Of a stretch of DNA of 42,236 nt, positions 22,778 to 37,313 are shown piece by piece. The notes beneath the pieces are model-generated. The model was not told the DNA's origin. It searched no databases and saw only the letters and a list, made by a program, of their open reading frames with translations. This DNA is from an uncultured Rubrobacteraceae bacterium (lineage in GTDB: Bacteria; Actinomycetota; Rubrobacteria; Rubrobacterales; Rubrobacteraceae). Every line of letters starts with the position of its first letter. Position 1 is the stretch's first letter. The position numbers and the translations under genes are program-made. The stretch spans positions 1-42,236 of the forward strand of contig CADCVH010000034.1 of the NCBI GenBank assembly GCA_902806085.1, in the 5' to 3' direction.

Positions 22778-22790
22778 TAGAGTAGGCGCC
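22778..22790 (+). promoter_or_regulatory. Possible leaderless promoter of the marC gene
   Basis: TAGAGT at 22778-22783 ends seven bases before GTG 22791, and no ribosome binding site fits. This spacing would place the transcript start at or next to the start codon. Confidence 0.4.
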
Positions 22791-23408
22791 GTGCCGGAGC
22801 TCGTGTTCAACTCGTTCGTGACGTTGCTGGTGGTCGTCGACCCTTTGGGGCTCGCGCCGATCTTCGCGGCGCTTACCCGCGGCTACCCGGCAAAGCGCAA
22901 GCGCGAGACGGCCATCAGGGGGACCGTGCTCGGGACCGTGATCCTGCTCATCTTCGCCCTAATAGGCGACGTGCTGCTCGAAGCGCTCGGCATCGGCATC
23001 CCCGCCTTCAGGATAGCGGGCGGCATCCTCCTCTTCTTTCTCTCGCTCGACATGGTCTTCGCGAGCCCGGCCGGGCTCCGCTCGCGGACGGTGCGCGAGC
23101 AGGAGGAGGACGACTACGTTCAGGACGTCTCGGTCTTCCCGCTCGCCATCCCGCTGGTCGCCGGCCCCGGCGCGATAACGACGGTCCTCCTCTACACGGG
23201 CGAGAGGAGCCCGGCGGAACTCGGGATCTTCGTCGCCGTCCTCCTCTTCGTCCTGCTCCTCACGCTCTTCTCCCTGCTGCTTGCGCCCCGCATCATGGCC
23301 CTCTTCGGCGAGACCGGGGCCAACGTCCTCTCCCGCGTGCTCGGCGTGCTCCTCGCCGCCCTCGCCGTCCAGTTCGTCCTTGACGGTCTCCAGTCTAGCC
23401 TCGCATAG
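22791..23408 (+). CDS. MarC-family integral membrane protein
   Basis: A 205-residue UPF0056/MarC protein with six hydrophobic helices. Landmarks are LLVVVDPLGLAPIFAALTRGY at the N-terminus, AFRIAGGILLFFLSLDMVFA, and FPLAIPLVAGPGAITTVLLY, all typical of the family. The function is unsettled (once linked to multiple antibiotic resistance, later disputed). GTG 22791 is preceded only by a -10-like hexamer. The stop TAG (23406-23408) is the first three bases of a TAGGTTTTGAGG repeat. Confidence 0.92.
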   Translation: MPELVFNSFVTLLVVVDPLGLAPIFAALTRGYPAKRKRETAIRGTVLGTVILLIFALIGDVLLEALGIGIPAFRIAGGILLFFLSLDMVFASPAGLRSRTVREQEEDDYVQDVSVFPLAIPLVAGPGAITTVLLYTGERSPAELGIFVAVLLFVLLLTLFSLLLAPRIMALFGETGANVLSRVLGVLLAALAVQFVLDGLQSSLA

Positions 23409-23424
23409 GTTTTGAGGTTCTAGG
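23406..23424 (+). repeat. G/T-rich repeat, arm at the marC stop codon
   Basis: TAGGTTTTGAGGTTCTAGG; the first TAG is the marC stop. Same word family as 23529-23586, 25954-25973, 26058-26090, 36407-36442 and 36573-36600. Confidence 0.75.
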
Positions 23425-23528
23425 TCGCCTCCTTCGGAGGCTTTCAGGCATTACAGTGGCTTTCATAAACTTTGAGAGGCTTGCTGGACGGGAGGAAGAT
23501 CTGCCAGGTCGAGGTACTCGGAGGCGCA

Positions 23529-23586
23529 AGGCTTTGAGGTTCAAGGTTCCAGGTTTTAGGTTTTGAGGTTTTAGGTTTTGAGGTTA
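23529..23586 (+). repeat. G/T-rich repeat block with 15-bp tandem units
   Basis: Begins AAGGCTTTGAGG and contains two tandem copies of the 15-mer GGTTTTAGGTTTTGA. The inverted arm CCTCAAAACCTCGAACCTC lies at 23698-23725. Confidence 0.75.
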
Positions 23587-23697
23587 TTGCTGAGGCCTGT
23601 GGCCCGAAGCCGGGACCCTCGAGGGCATCCTTTCCGCAAGCCGCTGTGGGGGTGTGCGTCTGGGGCCGGCTTCTCCTGGGACGGCTTCTCCTGGCGC

Positions 23698-23725
23698 CCC
23701 TCAAAACCTCGAACCTCAAAACCTG
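23698..23725 (-). repeat. G/T-rich repeat, inverted arm
   Basis: Reads CCTCAAAACCT twice around CGAACCTC, the complement of the forward arms at 23529-23586. It ends 24 bases before the next start codon. Confidence 0.7.
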
Positions 23726-23737
23726 ATTTCGGGCGGA

Positions 23738-23749
23738 TATACTGCCAGC
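23738..23749 (+). promoter_or_regulatory. Possible leaderless promoter of the hydrolase gene
   Basis: TATACT at 23738-23743 is six bases before ATG 23750, with no ribosome binding site between. Confidence 0.4.
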
Positions 23750-24469
23750 ATGGCTGGCGAACCTGTCGTGATCGTGGGTGGTGTCACCCAGTGGCCGGGA
23801 AGTTACCGGGGGCTGGCGGACCTGTTGGGAGAGGTGTCGGGGGCGGAGGTGCACGTCGCGGGCGTTACGCCGCTGGATTGGGTCTCCGGGTATTACCGGG
23901 GCTTCGGGCAACTCGTGTTCGAGGTGGCAAGCGCCGTGGACCGGGCGCTGTTGGGCCATTCGGCGAAGAGGGTGGTGCTGGTCGGGCATTCCGCGGGGGG
24001 GCTTGCCTGCCGGGTGTATATCGGGGGGGAGCCGCCTTATGGGGGGCGGCGGTACTCGGGGCACAGGCGGGTGTCGGGCCTGATCACGCTCGGCACGCCC
24101 CACGCGACCCCGCCCAAAGGGCGGCTGGCTGAACCCGTCTCGCGCGTGAACGGCCTCTTTCCCGGCGCCCTCCACGCGGACTCGGGCCTGCGCTACCTCT
24201 CCGTGGCGGGCGACGCCGTGGACGGGGCCTCCTCGGGGAGAGCCCGCCGCCGCTACGAGGGCTTCGTCGGGGACGGGAGGACCGCCGGGGACGGCGTCGT
24301 TCCGGTGGAGGCGGCGTTGCTGCCGGGCTCGGAGACGCTGGTCCTTGACGGGCTGCACCACAACCGCCGGCTGGGGCACTGGTACGGGTCGGACGCGGCG
24401 ACCGTGCGGCGCTGGTGGCTGGAAGAATCGCCCGCGGACGGCTCCCTTGTGGGAAAGACCGGCGCGTAG
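23750..24469 (+). CDS. Alpha/beta hydrolase (lipase/esterase-like)
   Basis: A 239-residue hydrolase. VVIVGGVTQWPGSYRGLADLL forms the first strand, VVLVGHSAGGLACRVYIGG holds the nucleophile elbow GHSAGG (Ser near residue 84), GDGVVPVEAALLPG probably the catalytic Asp, and LDGLHHNRRLGHWYGS the His. ITLGTPHATPP resembles PGAP1/LipA-like lipases. No signal peptide is seen, so it is cytosolic. ATG 23750 begins six bases after TATACT. The next gene (flavin reductase) starts 38 bases downstream and is probably in the same operon. Confidence 0.87.
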   Translation: MAGEPVVIVGGVTQWPGSYRGLADLLGEVSGAEVHVAGVTPLDWVSGYYRGFGQLVFEVASAVDRALLGHSAKRVVLVGHSAGGLACRVYIGGEPPYGGRRYSGHRRVSGLITLGTPHATPPKGRLAEPVSRVNGLFPGALHADSGLRYLSVAGDAVDGASSGRARRRYEGFVGDGRTAGDGVVPVEAALLPGSETLVLDGLHHNRRLGHWYGSDAATVRRWWLEESPADGSLVGKTGA

Positions 24470-24507
24470 TAGCCTCCAGAAGCCCGGCAGACGAGAAGGG
24501 ACCAAGG

Positions 24508-25134
24508 ATGCCGCCCGAAGGCCGTCGAGGAGAAAAGAAGGGGGAAGACACCTGGGAGACCCTCGGGGCGGACGCCGACGCGCTCAGGAAGGCCATGGGC
24601 TACTTTCCGACCGGGGTTACGGTGGTTACGAGCGGGCGCGGGGAGCGGGTCGAGGGCATGACGGCGAACGCCGTGGTCTCGGTCTCCCTCGACCCGCTGC
24701 TCTTCCTGGTGAGCGTCCACAAAGAGGCGCGCCTCAACGGCCGCATCCGGGAGGAGGGCCACTTCTCCGTCAGCCTGCTCGCTGACGATCAGGAGGGCCT
24801 CTCGAGGCTCTTCTCCTCGCCGGAGCGCTCCAGCGGCCTGCAGGCCGAGAGCTCGCTCGGCGGCGGGTACGGCTCCACGGGCGACCCGCTCGCCGCGGGG
24901 GCCCTCGCCGCCATCGAGTGCGAGGTGGCCGAGGTCTACGCCGGGGGCGACCACGACCTCTTCCTGGGGCGCGTGGTCGGGGTGAAGCTCGGCGACACCC
25001 GCAAGGGCCCGCTCGTCTTCCACGAGGGGGACTACCCCACGCTCTCCTCCAGGGCGCGGGCGGAGGACTCGGGGGCGTTTATGGACTCCGTCAGGGGCTT
25101 CGACGCCCGCATCGGCCGCAGAAGCCGGCGATAG
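24508..25134 (+). CDS. Flavin reductase-like domain protein
   Basis: A 208-residue protein of the flavin reductase (HpaC/RutF-like) family that reduces FMN or FAD with NAD(P)H. The signature is ALRKAMGYFPTGVTVVTSG, EGMTANAVVSVSLDPLLFLVSVHKEARLNGRIREEGHFSVSLL, and the C-terminal DHDLFLGRVVGV. It could serve a two-component monooxygenase; none is next door. ATG 24508 has AGAAGGG upstream. Its stop abuts the next GTG directly (TAG GTG), so the two are coupled. Confidence 0.9.
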   Translation: MPPEGRRGEKKGEDTWETLGADADALRKAMGYFPTGVTVVTSGRGERVEGMTANAVVSVSLDPLLFLVSVHKEARLNGRIREEGHFSVSLLADDQEGLSRLFSSPERSSGLQAESSLGGGYGSTGDPLAAGALAAIECEVAEVYAGGDHDLFLGRVVGVKLGDTRKGPLVFHEGDYPTLSSRARAEDSGAFMDSVRGFDARIGRRSRR

Positions 25135-25962
25135 GTGTTCCGCCGGTCCCTCCTGCCCCTCGTCAGGCCCAGGCCGGCCGACGAGCCTGGCCTCGTCTAC
25201 GACGAAGGCGTCGAGGAGAACGGCGCGATCCTGGCCGGCCGGACCCGCCTCCCCGCCACCGGCGAGACGTACCCCGTAAAGAACGGCTACCTCGACCTGC
25301 TCAAGGGCCGCCTCGGCGGGGACAACGTGGCGAACCTGACCAACTTTCTCCCTGGCGCGGGCCGCGGCTACGAACCGCTGTGGCGGGTCCGGTCCCTGAA
25401 CCTGCTAACCGGCGAAACATTCTCCAACGAGCGCGAGCTCGAGATCATCGCGGAGGCGGTCGGCCTCAGGCGCGGCGGCCTCTACCTGGACCTCGGCTGC
25501 TCCGCGGGGCTCTACACCCGCAAACTCGCCCGAGCTTTGGGCGATTCTGGGGACGTGATCGGGGTGGACATCTCCCCCTCCATGCTCAAGGAGGCCTCCC
25601 GCCGTACCCGGAACGAAGGCGTAATCGCCTCCCTCGTTCGCGCCGACGCGGCCTCCCTCCCCTTCGCGGACGCCTGCATGAACGGCGCGGTCTGCGGCGG
25701 CACCCTGAACGAGCTGGGCGACCCGGCCCGCGTCCTGCGCGAGACCCACCGCGTCCTCGAGCCCGGCTCCCGCCTCGCCATCATGGGCATCCTCCAGGCC
25801 CGAACCGCGAACGGGCGTCGCCTCCAGCGCCTCCTCTCCACCGGCGGCATCCGGTCTTTCAACCCAGACGAACTGACGGGCCTGCTCGATGCAGCCGGCT
25901 TCGACCCGGACCCCCTGACGACCCACGGCGCCGTCTTCTTCGCCGCCGCGACGAGGCTTTAA
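25135..25962 (+). CDS. SAM-dependent methyltransferase
   Basis: A 275-residue methyltransferase. The first ~55 residues (ENGAILAGRTRLPATGETYPVKNGYLDLL) look like the Trm112-like cysteine-poor front seen in UbiE/COQ5-like proteins. SAM motif I is LYLDLGCSAGLYTRKLA, followed by DVIGVDISPSMLKEAS and LVRADAASLPFADACMNGAVCGGTLNELGDPARVLRETHRVLEPG. The acceptor is unknown; lipid or quinone is likely for this group. GTG 25135 follows the flavin-reductase stop. The TAA stop lies within a G/T-rich repeat arm. Confidence 0.88.
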   Translation: MFRRSLLPLVRPRPADEPGLVYDEGVEENGAILAGRTRLPATGETYPVKNGYLDLLKGRLGGDNVANLTNFLPGAGRGYEPLWRVRSLNLLTGETFSNERELEIIAEAVGLRRGGLYLDLGCSAGLYTRKLARALGDSGDVIGVDISPSMLKEASRRTRNEGVIASLVRADAASLPFADACMNGAVCGGTLNELGDPARVLRETHRVLEPGSRLAIMGILQARTANGRRLQRLLSTGGIRSFNPDELTGLLDAAGFDPDPLTTHGAVFFAAATRL

Positions 25963-25973
25963 GGTTTTGAGGA
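25954..25973 (+). repeat. G/T-rich repeat arm at the methyltransferase stop
   Basis: AGGCTTTAAGGTTTTGAGGA; the TAA at 25960-25962 is the stop codon of the preceding gene. It pairs with the inverted arm at 26058-26090. Confidence 0.7.
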
Positions 25974-26057
25974 AGTTGGCGGGTTAAGTTGGCGGGCTCT
26001 TTCTTCGCGGGGGCTCCCGCAAAACGGAAGGCCGTCGGTTCCGGGGGCGTCCCCGGT

Positions 26058-26090
26058 ACCTCAAAGCCTTGGAGCCTCAAAACCTAGAAC
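26058..26090 (-). repeat. G/T-rich repeat arm overlapping the rbsD stop
   Basis: On the minus strand it reads GTTCTAGGTTTTGAGG, then AAGGCTTTGAGG. TAG at 26084-26086 is the stop codon of rbsD. Confidence 0.75.
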
Positions 26091-26470
26091 GCCACCCCGC
26101 AGCGCAGGATCACGTTAGAAAACGGCGTGGCCTCGCCGGTGCGGACCACGAGCTTCGCGTTGGCGGACATGCGCTTGAGTTCTTGATGGGTCACGAGCCC
26201 GAGGTCGGGCAGGGTTTCGCCGAGAAGACTGGCGGTGTCCGGGTTGTCCCGGATCTCCTCGGCCGCGGTGGCGCTTTCCACGACTATCTCTTCGAGTATC
26301 CCGAAGAGCACGGTCCCGAAGGACGGGACGCCGAAGGTGAAGGCGAGGTCGACGACGACGGGGCCGGGCGGGATCGGGAACCCCACGTCGCAGATCACCA
26401 CAAGATCGGTGTGCCCGAGCCCGGCAAGCTCCCCGGCGAGCCGCGAGTTGACCACACCCCCGCGCTTCAC
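26084..26470 (-). CDS. rbsD: D-ribose pyranase RbsD
   Basis: A 128-residue enzyme converting beta-D-ribopyranose to the furanose form that ribokinase uses. It starts VKRGGVVNSRLAGELAGLGHTDLVVICDVGFPIP, with the catalytic His20-type residue in GHTD, and ends LVVRTGEATPFSNVILRCGVAF, all standard. The GTG start at 26470 overlaps the rbsK stop as GTGA. No ribose transporter genes are in the window. Confidence 0.94.
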   Translation of the reverse strand: MKRGGVVNSRLAGELAGLGHTDLVVICDVGFPIPPGPVVVDLAFTFGVPSFGTVLFGILEEIVVESATAAEEIRDNPDTASLLGETLPDLGLVTHQELKRMSANAKLVVRTGEATPFSNVILRCGVAF

Positions 26471-27372
26471 GCGGGCCCCAGAACGTCCGGGGTGGGCAGC
26501 GCGCCCTGCGCGCCCTCCCTCGTCACGGCCGCCGCGCCGGCCCGGACGGCGTAGGAGACGGCCTCCCCCAGGGCGTCTCCGCGCGCGAGCCGGAACGCGA
26601 GCGCCCCGACGAAGGCGTCGCCCGCGCCGGTGGTGTCGACGACCTCGGCCCGCGGGGCAGGGACGTGCTCGGCGTCCTCGCCCTCCGCGTAGACGGCCCC
26701 GTCGGCCCCGACCGTTACCACGACGCACCCCGGCCCGAGGGCGAGAAGCTCCGGGGCGGCGTCCAGCGCGCCCTCGACGCCCTCCACGCGACCGCCGAGC
26801 AGAAAGGCGGCCTCGTGCTCGTTGACGACCAGGGTGTCCAGGCCCTCCAGCACGGCCCGCGGGACCTCGAACGGGGGCGCCAGGTTCAGGACCACGCGGG
26901 TCCCCTCTTGCCCGGCGACCTCCACGGCCCGCCCGATGGTCTCGCGCGGAATCTCCATCTGGGCGACGAGGACGCGGGCCTCGCGGATGGCCCCACGGGC
27001 GCCGTCCACGTCTTGCGGGGTGAGGCGCCGGTTCGCACCGGGGGCTACGGTGATGGCGTTCTCCCCGTCTGCGGTGACGGTTATAAAGGCCGTGCCGGTC
27101 GACGCGCCTTCGGCCTCCCGCACGAGGGCCGTGTCCACGCCCTTCTCCCGAAGTGCCCGTACGAGCGGTTCTCCGAACCCGTCGTCGCCGACCCTCCCGA
27201 GAAAGGCGACCGACGCGCCGAGCAGGGCCGCGGCGGCGGACTGGTTCGCGCCCTTGCCGCCGTTGTGGGTCGAGAGCACGGCGTCTGTCACGGTCTCGCC
27301 CGGCCTCGCGCGGCGCTCGACCTTCAGGACGAAGTCCTGGTTTATGGAGCCCATGACGAGAACGTCCGTCAC
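26467..27372 (-). CDS. rbsK: Ribokinase RbsK
   Basis: A 301-residue PfkB-family kinase making ribose 5-phosphate from ribose and ATP. It has MGSINQDFVLKVERRARPGETV, NGGKGANQSAAAALLGA (PfkB signature 1) and VVDTTGAGDAFVGALAFRLARG (signature 2 with the catalytic Asp). GTG 27372 is the start. The stop overlaps rbsD (GTGA). The upstream gene on the same strand ends 36 bases before it, so a larger minus-strand operon beginning at 28239 is likely. Confidence 0.94.
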   Translation of the reverse strand: MTDVLVMGSINQDFVLKVERRARPGETVTDAVLSTHNGGKGANQSAAAALLGASVAFLGRVGDDGFGEPLVRALREKGVDTALVREAEGASTGTAFITVTADGENAITVAPGANRRLTPQDVDGARGAIREARVLVAQMEIPRETIGRAVEVAGQEGTRVVLNLAPPFEVPRAVLEGLDTLVVNEHEAAFLLGGRVEGVEGALDAAPELLALGPGCVVVTVGADGAVYAEGEDAEHVPAPRAEVVDTTGAGDAFVGALAFRLARGDALGEAVSYAVRAGAAAVTREGAQGALPTPDVLGPA

Positions 27373-27408
27373 GCGGGGGCCTTTACGACGGTGCGTCCCG
27401 AGGGACTC

Positions 27409-27951
27409 CTACCCTCTCCGCCTGAGGGCCAACTGCCGCACGAGGATGGAGGCCAGGGAGAGCGCGACCGCGCGGGCGAGTCCTTTGAGCACCGCCTCCA
27501 GCACGTCGTCCCTCACACCCCTGCGCTCGGGTATCTGCTCCCCGATAAACCTGGTCAAGGGACGGGCCAGGATCTGGGACCCCACTATGCCTATCGCCGT
27601 CACGAGCATCTTCTGCGTCCCGTCGCTCAAACCTGTCCTTTCCGATGGTCCGGGCCCGTCGAGGCCGCGCATCTGGCGCACGCGGTCGAGGCCCGCCACC
27701 GTGAGCTCGTAGTCCTGGCCGCCCCCGGTGGACGGGTCCCCCGCCGCCCGGACGTACTCCTGATCCACCAAGTACCTCAAGGCGACCTCGTTTTCGGTCG
27801 TGTCGGCGTCCACGCCGGCCTTGGGCGCCGCGCCCATGGCGGGCTCGCCCGGCACCACGACCGGGACCGGCTCGTAGAGCTTGCTGCCCGAGAGGTCGTA
27901 TATCGCCCCAAGCAGCCTCAGTGCCGCGTCTTCTACCCCGCTGTTAGCCAA
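27409..27951 (-). CDS. Hypothetical protein with winged-helix-like N-terminus
   Basis: A 180-residue protein I cannot name. Residues 1-95 (ALRLLGAIYDLSG..., ENEVALRYLVDQEYVRAAGDPSTGGGQDYELTVAGLDRVRQM) resemble a winged-helix module in which the wing carries GQDYELTVAG. Residues 110-175 hold an amphipathic or weakly hydrophobic stretch (KMLVTAIGIVGSQILARPLTRF, AVALSLASILVRQLAL) that may meet the membrane. It lies between the coiled-coil gene and rbsK, all minus strand, with short gaps. Confidence 0.7.
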   Translation of the reverse strand: MANSGVEDAALRLLGAIYDLSGSKLYEPVPVVVPGEPAMGAAPKAGVDADTTENEVALRYLVDQEYVRAAGDPSTGGGQDYELTVAGLDRVRQMRGLDGPGPSERTGLSDGTQKMLVTAIGIVGSQILARPLTRFIGEQIPERRGVRDDVLEAVLKGLARAVALSLASILVRQLALRRRG

Positions 27952-27972
27952 CCCTTTCTCCTCCCACCAAAC

Positions 27973-28239
27973 CTACCGCCCGCCGCCACCGCCGGATCGC
28001 CCCTCCATCTGGGCTTCGATCCTCTCCAGGCGCTGCTCCAGGCGGTCCAGCCGCCCATCCGTCCGCTCCCTGTGCTGCCTGAAGTGCTCCCTGAGATCGT
28101 CCACCCCGCCCGGCCGGTCCCCGTCCCCGCCGCGACCCTGCCCGCGGCCCTCGCCACGGCCCTCGCCACGGCCCTCGCCACGGCCTTCGCCACGGCCTTG
28201 CCCGCGCCCCTCCGGGCCACCTCTGCGCCCTTGCCCCAT
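27973..28239 (-). CDS. Small Gly/Arg/Glu-repeat and coiled-coil protein
   Basis: An 88-residue protein. Residues ~8-40 are a low-complexity stretch, mostly the tetrapeptide GRGE, encoded by the 12-bp tandem repeat at 28146-28193. Residues ~48-80 form a clear heptad coiled coil (VDDLREHFRQHRERTDGRLDRLEQRLERIEAQM), then a Gly tail. ATG 28239 is used; the ribosome binding site is weak. It is divergent from the PASTA kinase gene 150 bp away. No known family. Confidence 0.65.
   Translation of the reverse strand: MGQGRRGGPEGRGQGRGEGRGEGRGEGRGEGRGQGRGGDGDRPGGVDDLREHFRQHRERTDGRLDRLEQRLERIEAQMEGRSGGGGGR
28146..28193. repeat. 12-bp tandem repeat, four units, in the coiled-coil gene
   Basis: Unit GGCCCTCGCCAC (plus strand), three perfect copies and one with a single change. 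It encodes repeated Gly-Arg-Gly-Glu on the minus strand; unit changes keep the frame. Confidence 0.85.
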
Positions 28240-28334
28240 CTCGACCTCCGCATCGTTCGTATCGCCCCGACAAGCGTACCCGGCCCCGGCCCGGCCTAAC
28301 CCTGCCGGCGGCGGGAGGGCGCCGATCGGGTGTG

Positions 28335-28340
28335 TAGAAT
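28335..28340 (+). promoter_or_regulatory. -10-like element upstream of the PASTA kinase
   Basis: TAGAAT, 50 bases before GTG 28390. No good -35 is seen. A similar TAGAAT precedes the QOR gene at 30300. Confidence 0.35.
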
Positions 28341-28389
28341 AGCGTCCCACAGGCAGCGTTTTCGAGGCGAGACACAGAGAGAGCGTGAC

Positions 28390-30204
28390 GTGCAGGGAAG
28401 CGTCGTGGACAACCGTTACGACGTCGTCCGGCCTCTGGGCAGCGGGGGCATGGGAGAGGTGTACCTGGCCCGCGACATGACCCTGGGCCGCGACGTGGCG
28501 CTGAAGCTGCTCAGGAGCCAGTTCGCCAACGACAGGGAATCCGCCGAGCGGTTCAAGCGAGAGGCCATGAGCGCCGCCAGGCTCTCCCACCCGAACATCG
28601 TGCAGGTCTACGACCGCGGGGTCACCGAAGACGGAACCTCCTACATAGCGATGGAGTACGTCCCGGGCGGCACCCTCAAGGAGCGCATCACCCACGACGG
28701 CCCGCTGGACGCGAAGGACGCGGCCTCGTTCGGCTACCAGGTGGCCGAAGCCCTCGGGGCCGCGCACGCCAAGGGCGTGATCCACCGCGACATAAAGCCC
28801 CAAAACGTCCTGATCACGGCCCCCGGCGAGGCGAAGGTCGCGGACTTCGGCATCGCTAGGGCCCTCTCGGCCGCGGCCGACTCCCGGACAAAGACGGGCG
28901 CGGTGATGGGAACCGCGGGCTACATGTCCCCCGAACAGGCCCTCGGCGAGCCCGCCACCCCCAAGAGCGACCTCTACTCTTTGGGCATCGTCCTCTACGA
29001 GGCTCTCACGGGCAAACTGCCCTTCACGGCCGACAACCCCATCGCCGTCTCCATGAAGCACGCCAACGAACCGCCCAGCCCCCCGCAACAGATCAACCCC
29101 AGCGTCCCGGACGGCATGAACGCCATAATCCTGAAGCTTCTAGCCAAGGCCCCCGAAGACCGCTACGCCGACGCCGACGAGCTCGCCGAAGACCTCTGGC
29201 GGGCGCGGCGCGGGACGCCGCCAGCCGCGGCGGCCGTGCCGGGGGAGGCCGAGACAGTCGAGACCCCGACCCGCCGACCCGCCACCACCGCCCCGCAGCC
29301 GGCGGTGGGCCGGTCCCGCAGGCGACGGGGCCGGGGACGGAGCCGGGGACGGAGCCGGGGACGGAGCCGGGGACGGAGCCTGGCGCCCCTGCTCCTCGGG
29401 ATACTGCTCCTCCTGCTCGGCCTCCTCGGGATCGCCTGGGCGCTCTTCGGGCAGGGGTTCGACCCGCTCGGGGGGCCGGGCGTAAGCGTTCCTTTCGTGG
29501 AGGGCCTCCAGAGGGAGCGGGCGGAGGGAAGGCTGGACGACGCGGGCCTGGCGTCCGAGGTCCGGACGCGGGAGGCCCCCGATGCCGAGGCCGGGACCGT
29601 GATCTCCCAATCGCCGACGGCCGGGGAGAGCGTGGTCCGGAACTCTACCGTGACCCTGACGGTGGCCCGCCCCTCCACGGTGGCGGTCCCGGAGATCGTC
29701 GGCCTGAACGAATCGGACGCCGAGGCGGAGCTCCAGGGGGCCGGCCTCACGGTGGGCAGCCGGTACGACGTGCAGAGCGAGACCGCCGCCGAGGGCATCG
29801 TGGTGCAACAAGGCATCGCCGCCGGGCAGGAAGTCCCCGGCGGCACCGCCGTCAACATCGGGGTCAGCTCCGGGGCCGCAATACCCGCGTCCGCCTCCCC
29901 GACCTCCTCGGCGAGCCCGCCGTCCTCCCAACAAACCGTCAACTCCCCGGCGCCCGACGACGCCCCGGCCCCCGACGATGTCCCGGCCCCGGACGATGCC
30001 TCCGCGAGTTCCTCCGCCTCTCCCCAGGCCGCCCCCGAAGCACAGGAATCGGAGGCCGCAGAAGACGGAGCGCGGGCAGGACCGCCGGAGGCGCAAGGTC
30101 CCAAAGCGAAAGCGCCCAAAGCGAAAGCGCCCAAAGTGAAGGCTCCGAAGGTGAAAGAGCCGAAAGCGGGGGCGGCCAAGCCTTTCGAGGGCGAGGGCGA
30201 CTAG
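28390..30204 (+). CDS. Ser/Thr protein kinase with two PASTA domains
   Basis: A 604-residue membrane kinase of the PknB/StkP type. Kinase domain ~10-275: glycine loop GSGGMGEVYLA, Lys39 in VALKLL, HRDIKPQN (Asp134), DFG at 152-154, and GTAGYMSPEQ. A basic repeat (GRSRGRSRGRS, from the 12-bp repeat at 29331-29378) precedes the single helix LAPLLLGILLLLLGLLGIAWALFG. Outside are two PASTA domains (VSVPFVEGLQR..., VAVPEIVGLNE...), then a long Ala/Pro/Asp-rich and Lys-Pro repeat tail (PAPDDVPAPDD, PKAKAPKVKAP). PASTA domains bind muropeptides, so it probably couples cell-wall state to phosphorylation. GTG 28390 is the best start. Confidence 0.94.
   Translation: MQGSVVDNRYDVVRPLGSGGMGEVYLARDMTLGRDVALKLLRSQFANDRESAERFKREAMSAARLSHPNIVQVYDRGVTEDGTSYIAMEYVPGGTLKERITHDGPLDAKDAASFGYQVAEALGAAHAKGVIHRDIKPQNVLITAPGEAKVADFGIARALSAAADSRTKTGAVMGTAGYMSPEQALGEPATPKSDLYSLGIVLYEALTGKLPFTADNPIAVSMKHANEPPSPPQQINPSVPDGMNAIILKLLAKAPEDRYADADELAEDLWRARRGTPPAAAAVPGEAETVETPTRRPATTAPQPAVGRSRRRRGRGRSRGRSRGRSRGRSLAPLLLGILLLLLGLLGIAWALFGQGFDPLGGPGVSVPFVEGLQRERAEGRLDDAGLASEVRTREAPDAEAGTVISQSPTAGESVVRNSTVTLTVARPSTVAVPEIVGLNESDAEAELQGAGLTVGSRYDVQSETAAEGIVVQQGIAAGQEVPGGTAVNIGVSSGAAIPASASPTSSASPPSSQQTVNSPAPDDAPAPDDVPAPDDASASSSASPQAAPEAQESEAAEDGARAGPPEAQGPKAKAPKAKAPKVKAPKVKEPKAGAAKPFEGEGD
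29331..29378. repeat. 12-bp tandem repeat, four units, in the kinase gene
   Basis: Unit CCGGGGACGGAG, four perfect copies, encoding Arg-Gly-Arg-Ser repeats just before the transmembrane helix. Unit gain or loss would lengthen or shorten the basic juxtamembrane linker without a frameshift. Confidence 0.85.
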
Positions 30205-30299
30205 GGCGGTCCGGGCCACCGGAAAGGCCAGAGGAATCCAGTAGCTGGCGCCGAAAACCGGCTGCTTCGGAATCGGACGCGGGCCGGTCCGCGTCCCGC

Positions 30300-30305
30300 T
30301 AGAAT
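30300..30305 (+). promoter_or_regulatory. -10-like element upstream of the QOR gene
   Basis: TAGAAT, 38 bases before ATG 30343. The ribosome binding site GAGGAGG lies between. Confidence 0.35.
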
Positions 30306-30342
30306 GATCGGGGCGTCGGGAGAGCGAAGAGGAGGAGCGGGG

Positions 30343-31314: not shown

Positions 31315-31315
31315 C

Positions 31316-32344
31316 GTGCCCGTGAAACTTGACGTCGGGCTCGGCACCGAGGGCGATTACCTCAAAGGGATGGACCTGACCGCCCGCGCAGCCGAGGACC
31401 TCGGCTTCGCCGGCCTCTGGACGAGCGAGACGAAGCACGACGCCTTCCTCCCGCTCGCCGTCGCGGCCAGCACTACCGAAAGGATAGACCTCGGCACCTC
31501 CGTCGCCATAGCCTTCTCCCGCTCCCCGATGGCGACCGCCCAGACGGCCTGGGACCTGCAGGGCCTCTCACAAGGCCGCTTCGTCCTCGGCCTTGGCACC
31601 CAGGTGAGGGCCCACGTCGAGCGCCGCTTCTCCATGCCCTTCGACAGGCCCGCAGCCCGCCTGCGCGAGTACATCCTGGCGCTGCGCGCCATCTGGGAAT
31701 CGTTCCAGGCCGAAGGCCGGCTAAAGTTCGAGGGCGAGTTTTACCGGCACACCCTTATGACGCCGTTCTTCAACCCCGGTCCCATAGAACATCCCGGCAT
31801 CCCGGTCTACATCGCCGGCGTCAACACGAGGCTGGCGCACCTCGCCGGCGAGCTCTGCGACGGCTTCCACGTCCACCCCTTCCACTCCCCCGAGTACGTG
31901 AGACGGACGGTCAAGCCGGCCATCGCGGAGGGGGCGGAGAGCTCGGGCCGCGCGGCCGGAGACGTGGAGCTCGCGACGAGCGTCTTCGTCGTCTCGGGCC
32001 AGGGCGAAGAAGAAACCACGGAGCAGCGCGAATCCGTCCGGGCCCAGATAGGCTTCTACGCCTCCACCCCGACCTACCGCACCGTCCTCGAAGCCCACGG
32101 CTGGGAAGAGGTCGGCGAGCGGCTCGGCGCCCTTGCGAGGGAGAGAAAGTGGCGCGAGATGCCGGACCTCATCACCGACGAGATGCTGCGCGCCTTCGTC
32201 GTCGAGGCGGCGCCGGAGGAGTTGGGCCCGACGCTGCAGGAGCGCTACGAGGGGCTCATCGGCCGCGTAACCCTGTACCTCCCGTTCGCTGCGGGGCAGC
32301 GAGACGACTTCTGGCGAAAGGTTGTCGCGTCGGTGCGCGGGTAG
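31316..32344 (+). CDS. F420-dependent LLM-class oxidoreductase
   Basis: A 342-residue luciferase-like (TIM-barrel) protein. The LLM F420 pattern is clear: LTARAAEDLGFAGLWTSETKHDAFLPLAVAA, IDLGTSVAIAFSRSPMATAQTAWDLQGLSQGRFVLGLGTQV and GIPVYIAGVNTRLAHLAGELCDGFHVHPFHSPEYV. I recall this form from an F420-dependent family near TIGR03617. It probably uses F420H2 made by the operon at 17.6-20.5 kb to reduce an unknown substrate. GTG 31316 follows the QOR stop by one base. Confidence 0.92.
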   Translation: MPVKLDVGLGTEGDYLKGMDLTARAAEDLGFAGLWTSETKHDAFLPLAVAASTTERIDLGTSVAIAFSRSPMATAQTAWDLQGLSQGRFVLGLGTQVRAHVERRFSMPFDRPAARLREYILALRAIWESFQAEGRLKFEGEFYRHTLMTPFFNPGPIEHPGIPVYIAGVNTRLAHLAGELCDGFHVHPFHSPEYVRRTVKPAIAEGAESSGRAAGDVELATSVFVVSGQGEEETTEQRESVRAQIGFYASTPTYRTVLEAHGWEEVGERLGALARERKWREMPDLITDEMLRAFVVEAAPEELGPTLQERYEGLIGRVTLYLPFAAGQRDDFWRKVVASVRG

Positions 32345-32499
32345 GAGCGGCGGATCTCCCGACTGCCGCCCCTACCGGACGTTCGGGGGTTCTGGCCGCC
32401 GTCGGAATTTCACAAAGCGGGCCAGGGATGCGACAACAGCGACCGCGGCGGAACCCGCGTTCCGCAGGGAGTAGCGTCTCGGTCGAAGGATTTGCATAA
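32345..32499. other. Gap between the LLM gene and a pseudogene
   Basis: No intact gene. The minus strand keeps a short open stretch (LRNAGSAAVAVVASLARFVKF) that could be the tail of the sulfotransferase pseudogene or another decayed gene. Confidence 0.3.
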
Positions 32500-33091
32500 C
32501 GGTGATCGCGCCGGGCAACGTCCCGGAGAGAAACGGGCGGCAGCAGGTGAACATAGAGATCGTGGATCTCCCTCACGGTATGCGCGCCGGGGAGGAAGGG
32601 CGTCTCGTCGCCCACGATCATCTTGCCCGTCCCGGACGGGCCTCTGTTCTAGAAAGTAGTCGAGGGCCAACCGGGTCGGGTTGGCGATGTGCTCGTCGGC
32701 GTTTCCCCGCCCCCAGACGGACCTCTTCACCCACAGCTTGAGGTCCCTGGAGTTGACGAGGGCGCCGGAGAGCGTTCGGGGCGGCACCTTCGCCCCCCGG
32801 CCCTCAGGTCTTCCCTGTACCATTTCTTACCGAAAAACCTCCCCTCCCACAAGCACAGTATCTCGGGGTGGGAGCCGAGGAGCCTCGCGAGCCACGTGGT
32901 GCCGGACTTGCCGTGACCCACGATAAAGAAGACCGTCCGCCCCTCCTCCGCGGCCGGCGTACCGGCCCGCCGGTTTCGCCCCCGCGCGTCCGCGAACCTC
33001 GGTCCCGGGGCCATCGCACCCCGGGCAACCACCCACGAGCGGCCCGGAGCCCGGAGTCCAGGTGGGCGCGTAGCCTGCGCGGTAGCTTCAC
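32500..33091 (-). pseudogene. Sulfotransferase, several frameshifts
   Basis: Pieces of one sulfotransferase-like protein lie in order on the minus strand in different frames: VKLPRRLRAHLDSGLRAARG (from GTG 33091), then TVFFIVGHGKSGTTWLARLLGSHPEILCLWEGRFFGKKW (PAPS 5'-phosphosulfate loop), then GALVNSRDLKLWVKRSVWG...ANPTRLALDYFLEQ and finally KMIVGDETPFLPGAHTVREIHDLY. At least three frame changes separate them, and the C-terminal part is unrecognisable. It is beyond a simple sequencing slip and is a decayed gene. Confidence 0.8.
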
Positions 33092-33191
33092 GTCGCCGGG
33101 GTTGGCATAAAGAGGCGTACCACGCGCCGGCGGCGCGGTGGAAACCGTCTCCCCGCCCGAAAACGCGCGGTTCTGCGGGGTGCTCCGGGGG

Positions 33192-34361
33192 TTAAGGTTT
33201 CAGGACGCACTTGATGGCGCCGTCCTGCTTTTTCTGGAAGATCTCGTACCCAAGCGGGGCGTCTTCGAGGGGCATCGTGTGGGTCTTGAGGTCCTCCACG
33301 CCCAGGACGTCCTCGTCGGTGAGGAGCGGCACGATGTCGTCGGTCCACTGGCGGACGTTGGCCTGGCCCATCCGGATCTGGATCTGCATGTCGAAGAGGT
33401 CGCCCAGGGGAAAGGCCTGTATCGGCCCCGCGTAGACCCCCGACACGGAGAGCGTGCCGCCGCGGCGGATGGAGGACATCGCCTCGCGCAGCGCCGTGCC
33501 GCGGTCTAGCTGGACCTTCGTGGTCTGGAGGATGGAGCCCACGACCGAGCCGCTCGCCTCCATGCCGACGGCGTCGATGGCCGCGTCGAGGCCGCGGCCG
33601 TCCGTGAGGTCCAGGATCACGTCCCGCACGTTGTCCACGGCGGAGAAGTCGACCGTCTGGACGCCGTGCCTGGAGGCCATCGCCAGGCGCTCGCCCACCC
33701 TGTCTATACCTATAACCCGTCCCGCGCCCTGGTGGAACGCGATCCTCGCGCAGATCTGGCCTATCGGGCCGAGGCCCCAGATCCCGACCGTCCCGCCCTC
33801 GGGCACGTCCGCGTACGCGACCGCCTGCCAACTCGTCGGCAGCACGTCGGAGAGGTAGAGGAACCGCTCGTCTGACGGCCCTTCCGGCACCTTTATGGGC
33901 CCGAAGTGGGCCTGCGGGACGCGCAGGTACTCGGCCTGCCCGCCAGGCACCGCGCCGTAGACGTGGGTGTAGCCGAAGAGGCTAGCGCCCCTGCCCCGAC
34001 CGAGCAGGTTGACGCCCTGTGCGAGCTTGCCCGTATCGCGCGTGGTTTCGCACTGGGAGTAGAGGTCCTGGGCGCAGAAATAGCAGTGGCCGCAGGAGAT
34101 GTTGAAGGGTATGACGACCCGGTCGCCGGGCGAGATGTGCTCCACCTCCCTGCCCACCTCCTCAACCACCCCCATCGGCTCGTGCCCGATGATGTCCCCC
34201 TCGCGCATGAGCGGGGAGAGCTTGGAGTACAGGTGCAGGTCCGAGCCGCAGATGGCGGTCGAGGTCACGCGGATTATGGCATCGTTCGGCTCCTGGATGA
34301 TCGGGTCGGGTACGTTGTCCACCCGGACGTCTTCCTTGCCGTGCCAGACTACGGCTTTCAG
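33192..34361 (-). CDS. Zinc-dependent alcohol/formaldehyde dehydrogenase, CTG start
   Basis: A 389-residue zinc MDR of the formaldehyde/threonine-dehydrogenase-like group. Catalytic zinc ligands are in ICGSDLHLY and GHEPMGVVEEV; the four structural-zinc cysteines are in CGHCYFCAQDLYSQC; the NAD loop is GIWGLGPIGQICARIAF. The family N-terminus (LKAVVWHGKEDVRVDNVPDP) is present but begins at CTG 34361: an in-frame TAG lies three codons upstream and no ATG/GTG/TTG precedes GTG 34322. AGGAGG at 34371-34376 lies nine bases before the CTG, and the upstream epimerase stop overlaps it as CTGA. Starting at GTG 34322 would remove the first beta strand. Confidence 0.88.
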   Translation of the reverse strand: MKAVVWHGKEDVRVDNVPDPIIQEPNDAIIRVTSTAICGSDLHLYSKLSPLMREGDIIGHEPMGVVEEVGREVEHISPGDRVVIPFNISCGHCYFCAQDLYSQCETTRDTGKLAQGVNLLGRGRGASLFGYTHVYGAVPGGQAEYLRVPQAHFGPIKVPEGPSDERFLYLSDVLPTSWQAVAYADVPEGGTVGIWGLGPIGQICARIAFHQGAGRVIGIDRVGERLAMASRHGVQTVDFSAVDNVRDVILDLTDGRGLDAAIDAVGMEASGSVVGSILQTTKVQLDRGTALREAMSSIRRGGTLSVSGVYAGPIQAFPLGDLFDMQIQIRMGQANVRQWTDDIVPLLTDEDVLGVEDLKTHTMPLEDAPLGYEIFQKKQDGAIKCVLKP

Positions 34362-35413
34362 GGCTCCCTACCTCCTACTCCCGTGAGGAACTCGCGGATG
34401 CGGAACGGCCCGCCCGTCTTCGGCGAGAGCGGCGGCGTGTCGAGGCCCGCCCCGCTGCGCAGGCCCTCCAGTATGTCCAGCAAGGCCTCGTCGGCCGAGA
34501 ACCGCGGCGTCCAGCCGAGCCCTGTCCGGGCCTTCTGGGTATCCATGATCGGGACGTTGAGCGAGAGGTCGAGCCACCCCGGCGGCACCGGCTGCAGCCT
34601 GAACCGCCACGAGAGGCCCGCCCCGGCCCGCGCCAGCCGCGCCGGGAAGGGCACCGGCCTGGCGTTCAGTATGCGCCCGATCTCCTTGGCGTCCAGCACC
34701 GGCTCCGCCGCGAGGTTGTAAGCCCCCCGCGCCTCCTCGTTCAAGATGGCCAGCCGGAACGCCTCCCCCACGTCGTAGGAATGGACCACCTGGGAGCGCA
34801 GGTTCTCTATCTCGGGCACGAAGTTGATGAGGCCCGGGTTGGCGAGCACGCTCGGGAAGAGGGGCCCTGCGAAGAGCCGGCGCACGCCCTCGGCCGCCTC
34901 GCGCTTGAAGACGAGGCCGGGCCGCATCCTGGTGACGCGTACCCCCGGCGACTCCGCTTCGAAGCGGTCGAGCCTGCGCTCTACCTCTGCCTTGTGGCGG
35001 CCGTAGTAGGAGGTCGGGATGCCGCCGGTGGGCCAGCTCTCGTCCACGGCCCGGTCCTTCGGCCCCGGCGAGTAGGCGCCGATCGAGGAGGCGTAGTGCA
35101 GGGCCGGAACGCCGGCCTCGGCGGTGGCCCTGGCGACCCGCGTGGTCCCCTCGACGTTGGTCATCCACTGCTTGTTCAGGTCGCGGGAGGGCTGGATGAT
35201 CCAGGCCAGGCACACCACCGCGTCCGCGCCCCGAAGATGCGGCACGAGGTCGTCGTTCACGACGTCCGCCGTGCCCCATTCGACCTTGGGTATCGTCAGG
35301 TCCGGCAGCCTGCGCGCCAGGCCGAGGACGGACTCGACCGCAGGTTCCGTCGAGAGCGAGCGCAGCACGCTCGTCCCGACGTTTCCGGTTGCACCTACGA
35401 CCACGACCCTCAT
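34358..35413 (-). CDS. NAD-dependent epimerase/dehydratase (extended SDR)
   Basis: A 351-residue extended SDR. The cofactor loop is VVVVGATGNVGTSVLRSL (residues 4-21), ALHYASSIGAYSPG holds the Ser-region and TSYYGRHKAEVER the catalytic YxxxK. The ending DTQKARTGLGWTPRFSADEAL is typical of sugar-nucleotide epimerase-like SDRs; the substrate is unknown. ATG 35413 is the start, with a weak GGCCGG before it. The TGA stop overlaps the CTG start of the next gene (CTGA). It is divergent from a second epimerase 87 bp away. Confidence 0.9.
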   Translation of the reverse strand: MRVVVVGATGNVGTSVLRSLSTEPAVESVLGLARRLPDLTIPKVEWGTADVVNDDLVPHLRGADAVVCLAWIIQPSRDLNKQWMTNVEGTTRVARATAEAGVPALHYASSIGAYSPGPKDRAVDESWPTGGIPTSYYGRHKAEVERRLDRFEAESPGVRVTRMRPGLVFKREAAEGVRRLFAGPLFPSVLANPGLINFVPEIENLRSQVVHSYDVGEAFRLAILNEEARGAYNLAAEPVLDAKEIGRILNARPVPFPARLARAGAGLSWRFRLQPVPPGWLDLSLNVPIMDTQKARTGLGWTPRFSADEALLDILEGLRSGAGLDTPPLSPKTGGPFRIREFLTGVGGREP

Positions 35414-35500
35414 GTACCGGCCTTTACCCGGCCTCCCGGCGCCCGAAACGCCCGGATGTTGTACTATCGCCTGCAACCTATACGGAGAGCGGGGAGAGAG
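35414..35500. promoter_or_regulatory. Divergent promoter gap between two epimerase genes
   Basis: The 87-bp gap must hold both promoters. GTACTATCG near 35461 and CCTATACGG near 35478 are possible -10 sites for the plus gene; GGGGAGAG at 35491 is its ribosome binding site. Confidence 0.35.
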
Positions 35501-36409
35501 ATGCGCGTACTGGTAACGGGTGCTAGGGGCAAGGTCGGTCGGGCGACCGTGGCGGCGCTGCAGGAGGCAGGCCACGACGTGAGGGCCACGGACGTCCTGC
35601 CGCCGGTCTTCGAGCGGCCGGAGCCGGGCGAGGCGGACTACTTCCAGGCCGACCTCACCGACGCGGGCGACGCCTTCGCGGTGGTGCGCGGGGCGGAGGC
35701 GGTCGTCCACGCGGCGGCGATCCCGGAGCCGACGAGGAACCCGCCGCACGTGGTGTTCGGGAACAACCTCATGGCGACCTTCAACACGCTTGAGGCCGCG
35801 ATCCGTTTCGGGGCCTCGCGGTTCGTCAACCTCTCCAGCGAGACCGTCCCCGGGTTCTTCTTCCCCGAGCGGCCGGTTTTGCCCGAGTACGTGCCGGTGG
35901 ACGAGGAGCACCCGATCCGGCCCCAGGACCCCTACGCCACCGCCAAGCACTTCGGCGAGCAGCTCATGGACGGCGCTTTACGCCGCTCGGACATCCGGTG
36001 CATCTCGATCCGTCCCTCCTGGGTCCAGCACGAGGGCAACTACGAGCGAAACCTCGGGCCCATGATCCGGGACCGCTCCGAGACGAGCCCCGGCTTCTGG
36101 AGCTACATAGACGTCTACGACCTCGCGGACGCCATAGTACTTGCCACCGGGAGCGACCTCCCCGGCCACGAGGTCTTCTACATAGCCTCCCCCGACAACG
36201 TCGGCGGCCGACCCTTCGAAGCGGCCGTCCGCGAACACTACGGGGACCAGGTCGAGGTCAGAAAACCCCTCCCCCGCGAAGACGCCGGCGGCATCTCCAT
36301 CGACAAAGCGAGGCGCATGCTCGGCTACGACCCGAAGCGCTCGTGGAGCGACTACCTGGACGACGAGGGGCACCTGAAGCCGGGCGTGACCGGGCTGTTC
36401 AGCGGGTAG
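35501..36409 (+). CDS. NAD-dependent epimerase/dehydratase (extended SDR)
   Basis: A 302-residue extended SDR with VLVTGARGKVGRATVAALQEAGH (cofactor loop), VVHAAAIPEP, FVNLSSETVPGFFFPE and YATAKHFGEQL (YxxxK). The SPDNVGGRPFEAAVREHYG and ISIDKARRMLGYDPKRSWSDYL segments near the C-terminus resemble uronate/sugar dehydrogenases such as UDH-like SDRs, but I cannot fix the substrate. ATG 35501 has GGGGAGAG upstream. The stop TAG at 36407-36409 is the start of a G/T-rich repeat arm. Confidence 0.9.
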   Translation: MRVLVTGARGKVGRATVAALQEAGHDVRATDVLPPVFERPEPGEADYFQADLTDAGDAFAVVRGAEAVVHAAAIPEPTRNPPHVVFGNNLMATFNTLEAAIRFGASRFVNLSSETVPGFFFPERPVLPEYVPVDEEHPIRPQDPYATAKHFGEQLMDGALRRSDIRCISIRPSWVQHEGNYERNLGPMIRDRSETSPGFWSYIDVYDLADAIVLATGSDLPGHEVFYIASPDNVGGRPFEAAVREHYGDQVEVRKPLPREDAGGISIDKARRMLGYDPKRSWSDYLDDEGHLKPGVTGLFSG

Positions 36410-36442
36410 GTTCGAGGTTTTGAGGTTCTAGGCTTTGAGGTT
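36407..36442 (+). repeat. G/T-rich repeat arm at the epimerase stop
   Basis: Starts TAGGTTCGAGGTTTTGAGG and continues TTCTAGGCTTTGAGGTT; its TAG is the stop codon. It pairs with the inverted arm at 36573-36600. Confidence 0.78.
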
Positions 36443-36572
36443 GGGGCAGGAGGGGACGGGTGGAGACGGTCGCGTCCCCGATGGGTTTTGCGATCGCCCC
36501 ACCCGTCCCAGGGGCAGGCAGCCAGCACCCGAGGCGGCGCGTTCGCGCCGAACGTCGAGGCACGGACGAAGA

Positions 36573-36600
36573 AGCCTAGAACCTCAAACCTCAAAACCTC
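36573..36600 (-). repeat. G/T-rich repeat, inverted arm next to the CBS-gene stop
   Basis: On the minus strand it reads CGAGGTTTTGAGG, TTTGAGG, TTCTAGGCT. The CBS gene stop (36607-36609) is six bases before the arm, read in the direction of that gene. Confidence 0.75.
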
Positions 36601-36606
36601 GTGCCT

Positions 36607-37269
36607 CTACGCCTCTTCCAGCGTCGGCTCCGGGTTATGCGAGGCCTCCACGGTCGTGACCGTGTAGTCGGCGTTCTCGAGCGCCTTCACGATGCCGGAG
36701 GGGTTGGTGGTTTCGAGGCGGAGGACTATTAGGCGGTTGCTCGCGCGTCCGGCCGGGGAGAGGAAGACGCCTCCTATGTTGACCTTTTTCTCCCGGATCA
36801 CGTCGGTCACGTTGGCGAGTTGGCCAGGCTCGTTGGGGACCTCGACCTCGACCCAGCTCCCGCGGTCGCGCGCGCCGACGAGCTCGATGAGGGTCTGCAT
36901 CATGTCCGAGGAGGTGATGATGCCGACGAGGCCGCCGTCGGCGACGACGGGGAGGCAGCCGATCCGGCGGTCGTGAAGCTCCCTCGCGGCGTGGTCTATG
37001 GTGTCCAGCGGGTGGATAGTGGCGAGGTCGGTGCTCATGATGTCCCCGAGCCGGCTCCAGTTGAGCGCGTCCCGCTCCCCGGTCGAGCCGCGCGGCGGGC
37101 TCGTGTCCCTGAGGTCCCGGTCCGAGACGAGCCCGACCAGGCGCCCCCCGTCTACGACCGGCAGGTGCCGGATGTTCCTCTCCCTGCACAACCTCCACGC
37201 CTCGGCCGCGCTCGCGTCCGGCCCCAAACTCACCACGTCCCGCGTCATGGAATCCCTTACCCGCAGCAT
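36607..37269 (-). CDS. Two-CBS-domain protein with C-terminal ACT domain
   Basis: A 220-residue AcuB-like protein. CBS 1 is MTRDVVSLGPDASAAEAWRLCRERNIRHLPVVDGGRLVGLVSDRDL; CBS 2 is IMSTDLATIHPLDTIDHAARELHDRRIGCLPVVADGGLVGIITSSDM; the ACT part starts VEVEVPNEPGQLANVTDVIREKKVNIGGV. CBS pairs bind adenosine nucleotides and ACT domains small metabolites, so a sensor or regulator is likely. ATG 37269 has AAAGGA upstream. It converges on the epimerase gene. Confidence 0.9.
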   Translation of the reverse strand: MLRVRDSMTRDVVSLGPDASAAEAWRLCRERNIRHLPVVDGGRLVGLVSDRDLRDTSPPRGSTGERDALNWSRLGDIMSTDLATIHPLDTIDHAARELHDRRIGCLPVVADGGLVGIITSSDMMQTLIELVGARDRGSWVEVEVPNEPGQLANVTDVIREKKVNIGGVFLSPAGRASNRLIVLRLETTNPSGIVKALENADYTVTTVEASHNPEPTLEEA

Positions 37270-37313
37270 AAGCCCGGTCCTTTCCCTCGCAACCCACACG
37301 TCCTCTCGGCAGC

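Follow-up and report, generated by a model that had tools for sequence, protein, structure and literature searches.

Arrays of a short tandem repeat lie at the ends of genes in three intergenic gaps of contig CADCVH010000034.1 (C34), the 42,236-nucleotide (nt) stretch of an uncultured Rubrobacteraceae bacterium that is called the window here. The contig is one of 133 in an assembly of 4,410,221 bases (G000, the own genome; related genomes, contigs and loci are given as G, C and L numbers). The arrays are built of units of mostly seven bases, and are read here as an oriented gene-end signal that would be recognised by its sequence and would also fold into a two-way stem-loop. Judged from sequence, this reading has roughly an even chance of being right. 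The observations under it are direct: the words are enriched, they recur as heptads, they sit at stop codons, they point inward, they are scarce in divergent gaps, hairpins are predicted from them, and orthologous gaps carry differing words.

Genome-wide abundance was measured with the word AGGTTTTGAGGTT. Allowing up to one mismatch, 133 matches were counted in the own genome, 71 of them forward and 62 reverse, against 1+0 for the reversed word used as a control. The view of the initial annotation that the three gaps share a repeat family is upheld; the family is dispersed through the genome, its frequency being above chance. Gene-level counts come from 725 kb of this genome in which genes were called with a home-made gene caller. 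The sample comprises the window contig and C53, C79, C94 and C102, four large contigs selected as known to hold word matches. All 29 strong arms found in these five contigs are outside called genes, and none fell inside a gene in either of the two sets examined (0/29 and 0/26). Weak single-word matches are taken as background because 33 of 44 in the same sample fall in genes. Under a looser definition of the unit, 7 of 65 runs on the gene-called contigs are inside called genes; in the relative G006 the figure is 2 of 78 runs.

The units of the own genome, termed the AGG dialect, are seven or eight bases long (AGGYWNN and AGGYTTTG). Among 285 units, 174 have seven bases and 111 have eight, the commonest being GGTTTTGA (45), GGTTCTA (31), GGTTCGA (24) and GGCTTTGA (23). 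Units of eight and seven bases in alternation give a 15-bp period, and the 15-bp tandem units remarked on initially are of this composition. With runs defined as GGY(T/A) units at a spacing of 7 or 8, every unit ending in A, 91 were found against 8 on reversed text; when the condition on the final A is dropped the numbers are 295 and 237, so the filter matters. A heptad period is also seen in the recurrence of AGG at lag 7 in G003 (104 against 22) and of AGC, the core of a second dialect described below, in G006 (283 against a median of 55) and G083 (150 against 22). In G000 the lag signal by itself is weak (149 against 94; the control word CGA gives 157 against 107 at lag 12).

Of the sense arms, 16 of 18 in G000, 14 of 16 in G003 and 22 of 48 in G006 begin no more than 12 nt from the stop; the median distance in G006 is 19 nt. 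Arms placed uniformly in those gaps would come this close 3.3, 1.2 and 6.1 times on average, and the observed number was reached in 0 of 5000 trials in each genome, so that the proposed enrichment at gene ends, put to a distance-to-stop check, stands. The stretches of G003, G005, G019, G083 and G105 used in the analysis were partly picked for word hits or syntenic genes. Strong arms of the own sample occupy 19 gaps, 7 convergent, 12 tandem and 0 divergent, which corresponds to 7/91, 12/314 and 0/108 of the gaps of each kind (divergent versus rest, p=0.018). G006 has arms in 19/48 convergent, 24/177 tandem and 2/55 divergent gaps (p=0.0036); in G003 the deficit in divergent gaps, 1/19 with arms, is not significant (p=0.30). 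Arms favour convergent over tandem gaps in G006 (p=1.4e-4), but not significantly so in G000 (p=0.16). Of the 19 own gaps, 12 have both arms marked, and 7 of these 12 are tandem, with no gene pointing the other way. Wherever pairs were tallied they face inward: inward to outward, AGG arms number 30:0 in G000 and G003 together (27 distinct right-hand arms, three counted twice, in a sample partly chosen by word hits), and TCAGC pairs 24:0 in G006, 6:0 in G083 and 3:0 in G019.

A preference of the arrays for TAG or TAA stops, also proposed initially, survives in reduced form. TAG is the stop at 13 of 17 arm-bearing ends and at 350 of 690 other ends (p=0.048); the preference is weak and follows in part from the words themselves, which contain TAG, TGA and TAA. 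A strong stop-codon preference was therefore dropped in favour of a modest TAG excess.

The following mechanism is proposed. Runs of a species-specific seven-base unit start at the stop codon or directly beside it, follow the direction of the gene, and usually face a second array at a distance of about 35-150 bases. Each array would be read in one direction by a sequence-specific reader, which may be RNA polymerase or a factor that binds RNA or DNA. Directional reading is suggested because a hairpin alone would work with outward arms too, and no tallied pair is outward. The second array would provide a stem-loop, with which the gap could end, insulate or protect transcripts arriving from either side. 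The arrays would thus resemble a terminator that works in both directions, or a mark of the 3' end, and would do so without a U-tract. The directional word and the stem-loop are combined because pairing leaves the orientation unexplained, and a one-sided signal leaves the second arm of tandem gaps unexplained. A terminator type had been one of two alternatives in the initial annotation, and something terminator-like is the leading reading here.

The arrangement is seen in all three gaps of the window, whose coordinates and words were found as first described by sequence check and repeat search. The first gap follows marC (Pfam MarC), whose stop TAG at 23406-23408 is the TAG of a sense array, TAGGTTTTGAGGTTCTAGG, at 23406..23424 on the plus strand (sequence inspection, repeat search and Pfam). 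A second forward array of alternating 8- and 7-base units with the 15-bp period follows at 23528..23585 (plus), and it is faced by an array at 23699..23724, which reads AGGTTTTGAGGTTCGAGGTTTTGAGG on the minus strand and lies upstream of the next gene; both were defined by repeat search and unit tally. In the second gap a sense array, GAGGCTTTAAGGTTTTGAGG, at 25953..25972 (plus; repeat search, orthologous gaps) runs across the stop TAA of the methyltransferase gene (25960-25962, Pfam), and faces an array at 26059..26086 (minus; repeat search, Pfam, orthologous gaps) that is sense for rbsD and includes its stop (26084-26086, minus strand, Pfam). In the third, the stop TAG of the epimerase gene (36407-36409, Pfam) opens a sense array at 36407..36442 (plus) with units AGGTTCG, AGGTTTTG, AGGTTCT and AGGCTTTG. 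Its partner at 36572..36606 (minus) is sense for the CBS/ACT gene and extends through a unit AGGCACG up to the stop of that gene (36607-36609, minus strand, Pfam); both arrays rest on repeat search, Pfam and unit tally.

The stops of marC, the methyltransferase gene, rbsD and the epimerase gene are thus in arms, as had been claimed with genes now checked against Pfam. The CBS stop had been placed short of its arm, which needed correction. The 7 bases from the last named word to this stop, CGTGCCT on the plus strand, are AGGCACG on the minus strand, and if AGGCACG is counted as a unit (GGCACGA is tallied as a unit elsewhere) the CBS arm reaches its stop too. An inverted-repeat search confirmed facing arms in each gap: 23558-23583 and 23699-23724 (26 nt, 92% complementary, 115 nt between), 25953-25972 and 26059-26078 (20 nt, 85%, 86 nt between), and 36408-36435 and 36572-36599 (28 nt, 82%, 136 nt between).

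RNA from these gaps is predicted to fold strongly, with z scores of -4.56 (23528-23726), -4.26 (25953-26087) and -6.48 (36407-36609). Median fold z of convergent gaps with and without arms is -5.29 (n=5) versus -0.98 (30 of 38 gaps) in G000 and -3.94 (17) versus -1.78 (16) in G006, and tandem gaps of G006 show the same direction (-2.29 versus -0.27). Also counted for a signal that folds is the compact GC hairpin that replaces the arrays in the epimerase-CBS gap of G007 (27 bp) and in the C102 gap of G005 (101 bp). One hairpin followed by a T-run adjoins an arm of the window, at 26105-26089 on the minus strand.

Several results weigh against a directional signal with a functional stem-loop. First, tandem gaps of G000 gain only slightly in folding (-1.17 with arms, -0.63 without). 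Second, hairpin plus T-run signals are not enriched in gaps with arms: in G000 they occur in 0/5 convergent and 1/7 tandem gaps with arms versus 5/38 and 25/177 without, in G006 in 1/17 and 3/18 versus 0/16 and 8/75, and 5 were found between 23350 and 36700 where 6.5 were expected. The arrays were thus not assigned to the intrinsic (rho-independent) terminators, and Rfam gave 0 matches at gathering score in 22000-38000. Third, in G000 the likeness between the two arms within an element does not exceed that between arms taken from different elements (228 versus 242.6+-9.1, reached by 4779 of 5000 shuffles), and in G006 the NN bases, the two variable bases of the AGC dialect, show no excess likeness either (52 versus 49.6+-3.6). 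For this reason no co-evolution of pairing is seen in these two genomes. Fourth, some gene ends are followed by an antisense array only: compared with ends that have a sense array, these number 8 versus 18 in G000, 3 versus 16 in G003, and 14 versus 48 in G006. Hairpin arms that co-evolve were rejected as an explanation for G000 and G006; they are weakly seen in G003, which shows some likeness within elements (152 versus 133.9+-7.5, reached by 65 of 5000 shuffles).

Relatives use the same geometry with different words. Among 40 relatives, AGGTTTTGAGGTT is high only in G003 (56), G004 (90) and G006 (32), with the control at 0 in all three; G014 has 15 and G001 has 8 (control 0 in both), and another four genomes within the genus do not rise above the control (0-3 versus 2-3). 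The words over-represented in the gaps of G006 (two contigs, 4.6 Mb) are GCTGAAAGC and its relatives, which read from the gene are AGCNNTC. The paired-unit pattern GCTGANNGCTGANNGC has 476+447 = 923 matches there (control 0) and is frequent, again with control 0, in G014 (108) and G019 (42) of the family and in G083 (61) and G115 (43) outside it. It is not specific in G020, G023, G026, G015, G044 and G047, where the reversed control is high too. Reversed GCTGANNGCTGANNGC is itself frequent (34 in G020, 20 in G026, 60 in G044), a hint of another periodic repeat. AGGNNTCAGGNNTCAGG is frequent with the control at 0 in each of G044 (180), G003 (112), G006 (102), G005 (40), G015 (39) and G002 (31). 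Own GCCGAAAGC words were considered as a second dialect of G000, and their listing is mixed. In G006, inner modules rich in CGGCTTCGCC stand between AGC heptads (C1:1400001-1800000, L169-L188); they seem to keep the heptad phase, because AGC recurs at lags 14, 21 and 28 (206, 160 and 107 against a median of 55).

The NN bases of the AGC dialect are T 0.53 and C 0.30 at the first position and A 0.35, T 0.30 and G 0.24 at the second in G006. In G083, of another family and with a sampled GC content of 47%, they are T 0.52 and C 0.28, then A 0.48, T 0.24 and G 0.21. The make-up is near-identical in the two genomes and differs in G019 (G 0.35, T 0.30, C 0.26). Such near-equality across families, G019 aside, would also be expected if the arrays were oriented DNA or RNA binding sites of a conserved factor with a role other than transcript ending, for instance in translation at gene borders or in nucleoid structure. 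The hairpin would then be a by-product of both sides using one word, and fixed positions, free NN bases, strict orientation and the missing co-variation within elements of G000 and G006 would fit as well. A point against this reading is that second arms are present in tandem gaps too (7 of 12), where pairing alone seems to need them. A binding site of this kind is possible but rather unlikely.

The AGC dialect also bears on G-quadruplexes, which have been proposed for GGGAATC repeats. In the AGG dialect GG runs do recur regularly every 7-8 bases, but these are tracts of two G and not three, and the AGC dialect keeps the same geometry in G006, G083 and G019 without any G-tract. G-quadruplexes were therefore rejected as the property common to the arrays, and as an explanation they are scarcely credible.

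For the comparison of orthologous gaps, suggested initially as a check, only genomes with both gene ends on one fetched locus were counted. The methyltransferase-rbsD gap is 121 bp in the own genome, 132 in G003 and 872 in G004, all with AGG words, 101 bp with mainly AGC words in G006, and 5 bp in G001. The epimerase-CBS gap has AGG words in the own genome (197) and G004 (127) and AGC words in G006 (260); in G007 it is the 27-bp hairpin and in G002 the genes overlap. The C53 gap has AGG words in the own genome (199), G003 (208) and G004 (188) and AGC words in G006 (269) and G005 (101); in G002 and G008 the genes overlap by 4. AGG words fill the C102 gap of the own genome (135), G003 (140) and one G004 contig (122), and AGC words that of a second G004 contig (158); G006 (365) and G002 (181) have both kinds, G005 the array-free hairpin (101), and G001 5 bp. 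The C79 gap measures 164 in the own genome, 159 in G001 with decayed-looking arms, 152 in G004, 1097 with AGC words in G006 and 1361 in G002. Among 13 named loci of the marC gap, L060, L061 and L068 have heptads, L062, L064, L065, L066, L067 and L069 are short and heptad-free, and L063, L070, L071 and L072 hold other sequence. One and the same orthologous gap can thus contain arrays of one or the other dialect, only a plain hairpin, or none of these.

The 5-bp gaps of G001 (TAA AGCCT CTA and TAG GACCT TTA) were rejected as empty sites; they may be deletions, because the five bases resemble an arm's outer end. The overlapping genes of G002 and G008 are better candidates for truly empty sites. 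The G004 contigs C400 and C349 (L263, L272) carry one gap in two versions, with AGG words and with AGC words, reflecting mixed strains or a duplication. A second epimerase-CBS pair in the own genome (C55 5627-7959; L148, L157) has 88-89% DNA identity to the window and a 737-bp gap, which may mean an assembly of two mixed strains or a duplication.

The decayed-looking arms of the G001 copy of the C79 gap would suit neutral short tandem repeats, in which slippage makes heptad runs that persist only in places with little other coded information, just after stops and away from promoters. Tandem runs of 15 and 7 bp, absent from genes and scarce in divergent gaps, would suit them also. Slippage leaves unexplained why each genome has a single genome-wide word with five constant and two free bases, a fixed orientation and two facing arrays, and is improbable as the origin of the whole pattern.

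The other alternative of the initial annotation, a mobile or self-copying unit, did not hold up in the form of a unit with defined ends. Mobile elements of the repetitive extragenic palindrome (REP), bacterial interspersed mosaic element (BIME) or miniature inverted-repeat transposable element (MITE) kind, served by a transposase in trans, could account for dispersed intergenic inverted pairs and for presence and absence at orthologous gaps. In DNA searches with gap and flanks, other arms in the genome were matched and no second copy of a spacer was found, in support of the initial remark that the interiors are unrelated. Arms vary in unit number and composition and have no constant ends. No target-site duplication was seen by eye in the marC, methyltransferase-rbsD, epimerase-CBS, C53, C79 and C102 orthologous gaps; gaps with and without arrays could be compared there, and no duplication was readable. 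Among the nine genomes of the genus, a profile search for Y1_Tnp (PF01797) gave hits in two, G005 and G008, and 0 in G000, G001, G002, G003, G004, G006 and G007, the G003 and G004 assemblies being 82% and 88% complete. The array-richest genomes are G000, G003, G004 and G006. In these searches and comparisons the arrays showed neither the fixed termini, common interior and target duplication of MITEs nor the Y1 transposase (PF01797) of REP/BIME elements spread by REP-associated tyrosine transposases (RAYTs). With no second spacer copy found in the DNA searches, no arm co-variation in G000 and G006 and no Y1/RAYT found there, a mobile unit with fixed ends is unlikely; the REP- or MITE-like unit was rejected on its spacers, the Y1/RAYT result and the lack of a readable target duplication, and mobility in trans is very improbable.

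Spacers hold repeats of their own. In the marC gap a 15-nt direct repeat unit, GGGCCGGCTTCTCCT / GGGACGGCTTCTCCT, spans 23663-23692; between the methyltransferase gene and rbsD AAGTTGGCGGG is present twice (25973-25996); and at 36453-36509 an 11-nt perfect inverted repeat, GGGACGGGTGG / CCACCCGTCCC, is nested within the outer arms. Inner GC hairpins were also found inside other elements in the orthologous-gap comparison. By Pfam, the genes beside the three gaps encode MarC, a PGAP1/thioesterase-like protein, a flavin reductase, a methyltransferase, RbsD, an epimerase and a CBS/ACT protein. The closest named relatives of marC are in Rubrobacteraceae assemblies (91-92% protein identity). Elsewhere in the own genome, on C94, 17 of the contig's 18 TGTGGATAA/TTATCCACA words cluster at about 112.8-115.4 kb, and the other four contigs examined have none; these are presumably DnaA boxes of the replication origin.

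Among the papers listed in literature searches, no title deals with such repeats in Rubrobacter or with the words themselves. A named repeat of this geometry does exist, contrary to the initial statement that none was known. According to Rehm et al. (2015, PMC4692102), GGGAATC and GGGGA(C/T)T heptamers of Xanthomonas and Nostoc are dispersed and mostly intergenic, with function unknown. Sense-strand copies overlap a stop or come no further than 50 bp from it, and copies on the non-coding strand precede the following open reading frame; convergent inverted pairs number 70 and 75 in two Xanthomonas genomes, few stand between divergent genes, and unit number varies, with a preference for four. 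G-quadruplexes were proposed for them, and in Xanthomonas transcript starts and stops are reported to be commoner at repeats capable of forming these than at control repeats (PMC4692102), which is counted here in favour of the transcript-ending reading. The arrays here are likewise intergenic seven-base tandem units, with sense arrays at stops, inward pairs, variable unit number and rarity in genes and divergent gaps. They differ in their words (AGGYWNN/AGGYTTTG and AGCNNTC), in frequent eight-base units, in phylum and in the dialects that replace each other within one orthologous gap. The GGG tracts on which G-quadruplexes were proposed are lacking: the AGG dialect has GG only and AGCNNTC no G-tract.

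Other known systems share some features. TAACTGA direct repeats of Beggiatoaceae and Cyanobacteria (MacGregor 2015, PMC4679880) are intergenic heptads near start codons, proposed as sites of a translational regulator; some overlap the end of the upstream gene, but they are direct arrays aimed at start codons, with a single inverted repeat reported. By our own comparison, TCAGTTA, the reverse complement of TAACTGA, can be placed in the frame TC-AG-NNN. DNA uptake sequences of Neisseriaceae (PMC3630211) also are short words in species dialects with inverted pairs associated with terminators, although they are single non-tandem words and not heptad arrays. REP/BIME elements and REP doublets forming hairpins (REPINs) are intergenic, palindromic and of high copy number (PMC3733652, PMC3116915), whereas no conserved short palindromic unit and no Y1/RAYT were found in the array-rich genomes. 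Inverted repeats are enriched after bacterial stop codons, according to a report that does not mention Rubrobacter in the part drawn on (PMC13155455).

Tentatively, and with considerable doubt, these heptads could form a widespread class of oriented punctuation at bacterial gene ends, with a frame (A/G)G(C/G)NNTC or species dialects and a conserved factor as reader. GGGAATC in Xanthomonas, AGGNNTC and AGCNNTC in Actinomycetota, and perhaps AGTTATC (reverse complement of TAACTGA) in Beggiatoaceae would then be dialects of one transcript-ending or insulating signal; the placing of AGGNNTC, AGCNNTC, GGGAATC and AGTTATC in one frame is ours.

A repeat class described in 2015 is now found in another phylum, in words that lack the G-tracts underlying its only structural explanation. 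Position, orientation and pairing stay constant without G-tracts, and the range of properties that the class may share is therefore narrowed. Because neighbouring species put different words into the same gap, and some have hardly any gap, natural swaps with which to test the arrays exist within the Rubrobacter group. If the arrays do end transcripts, the U-tract-free terminators of high-GC actinobacteria would gain a recognisable signal.

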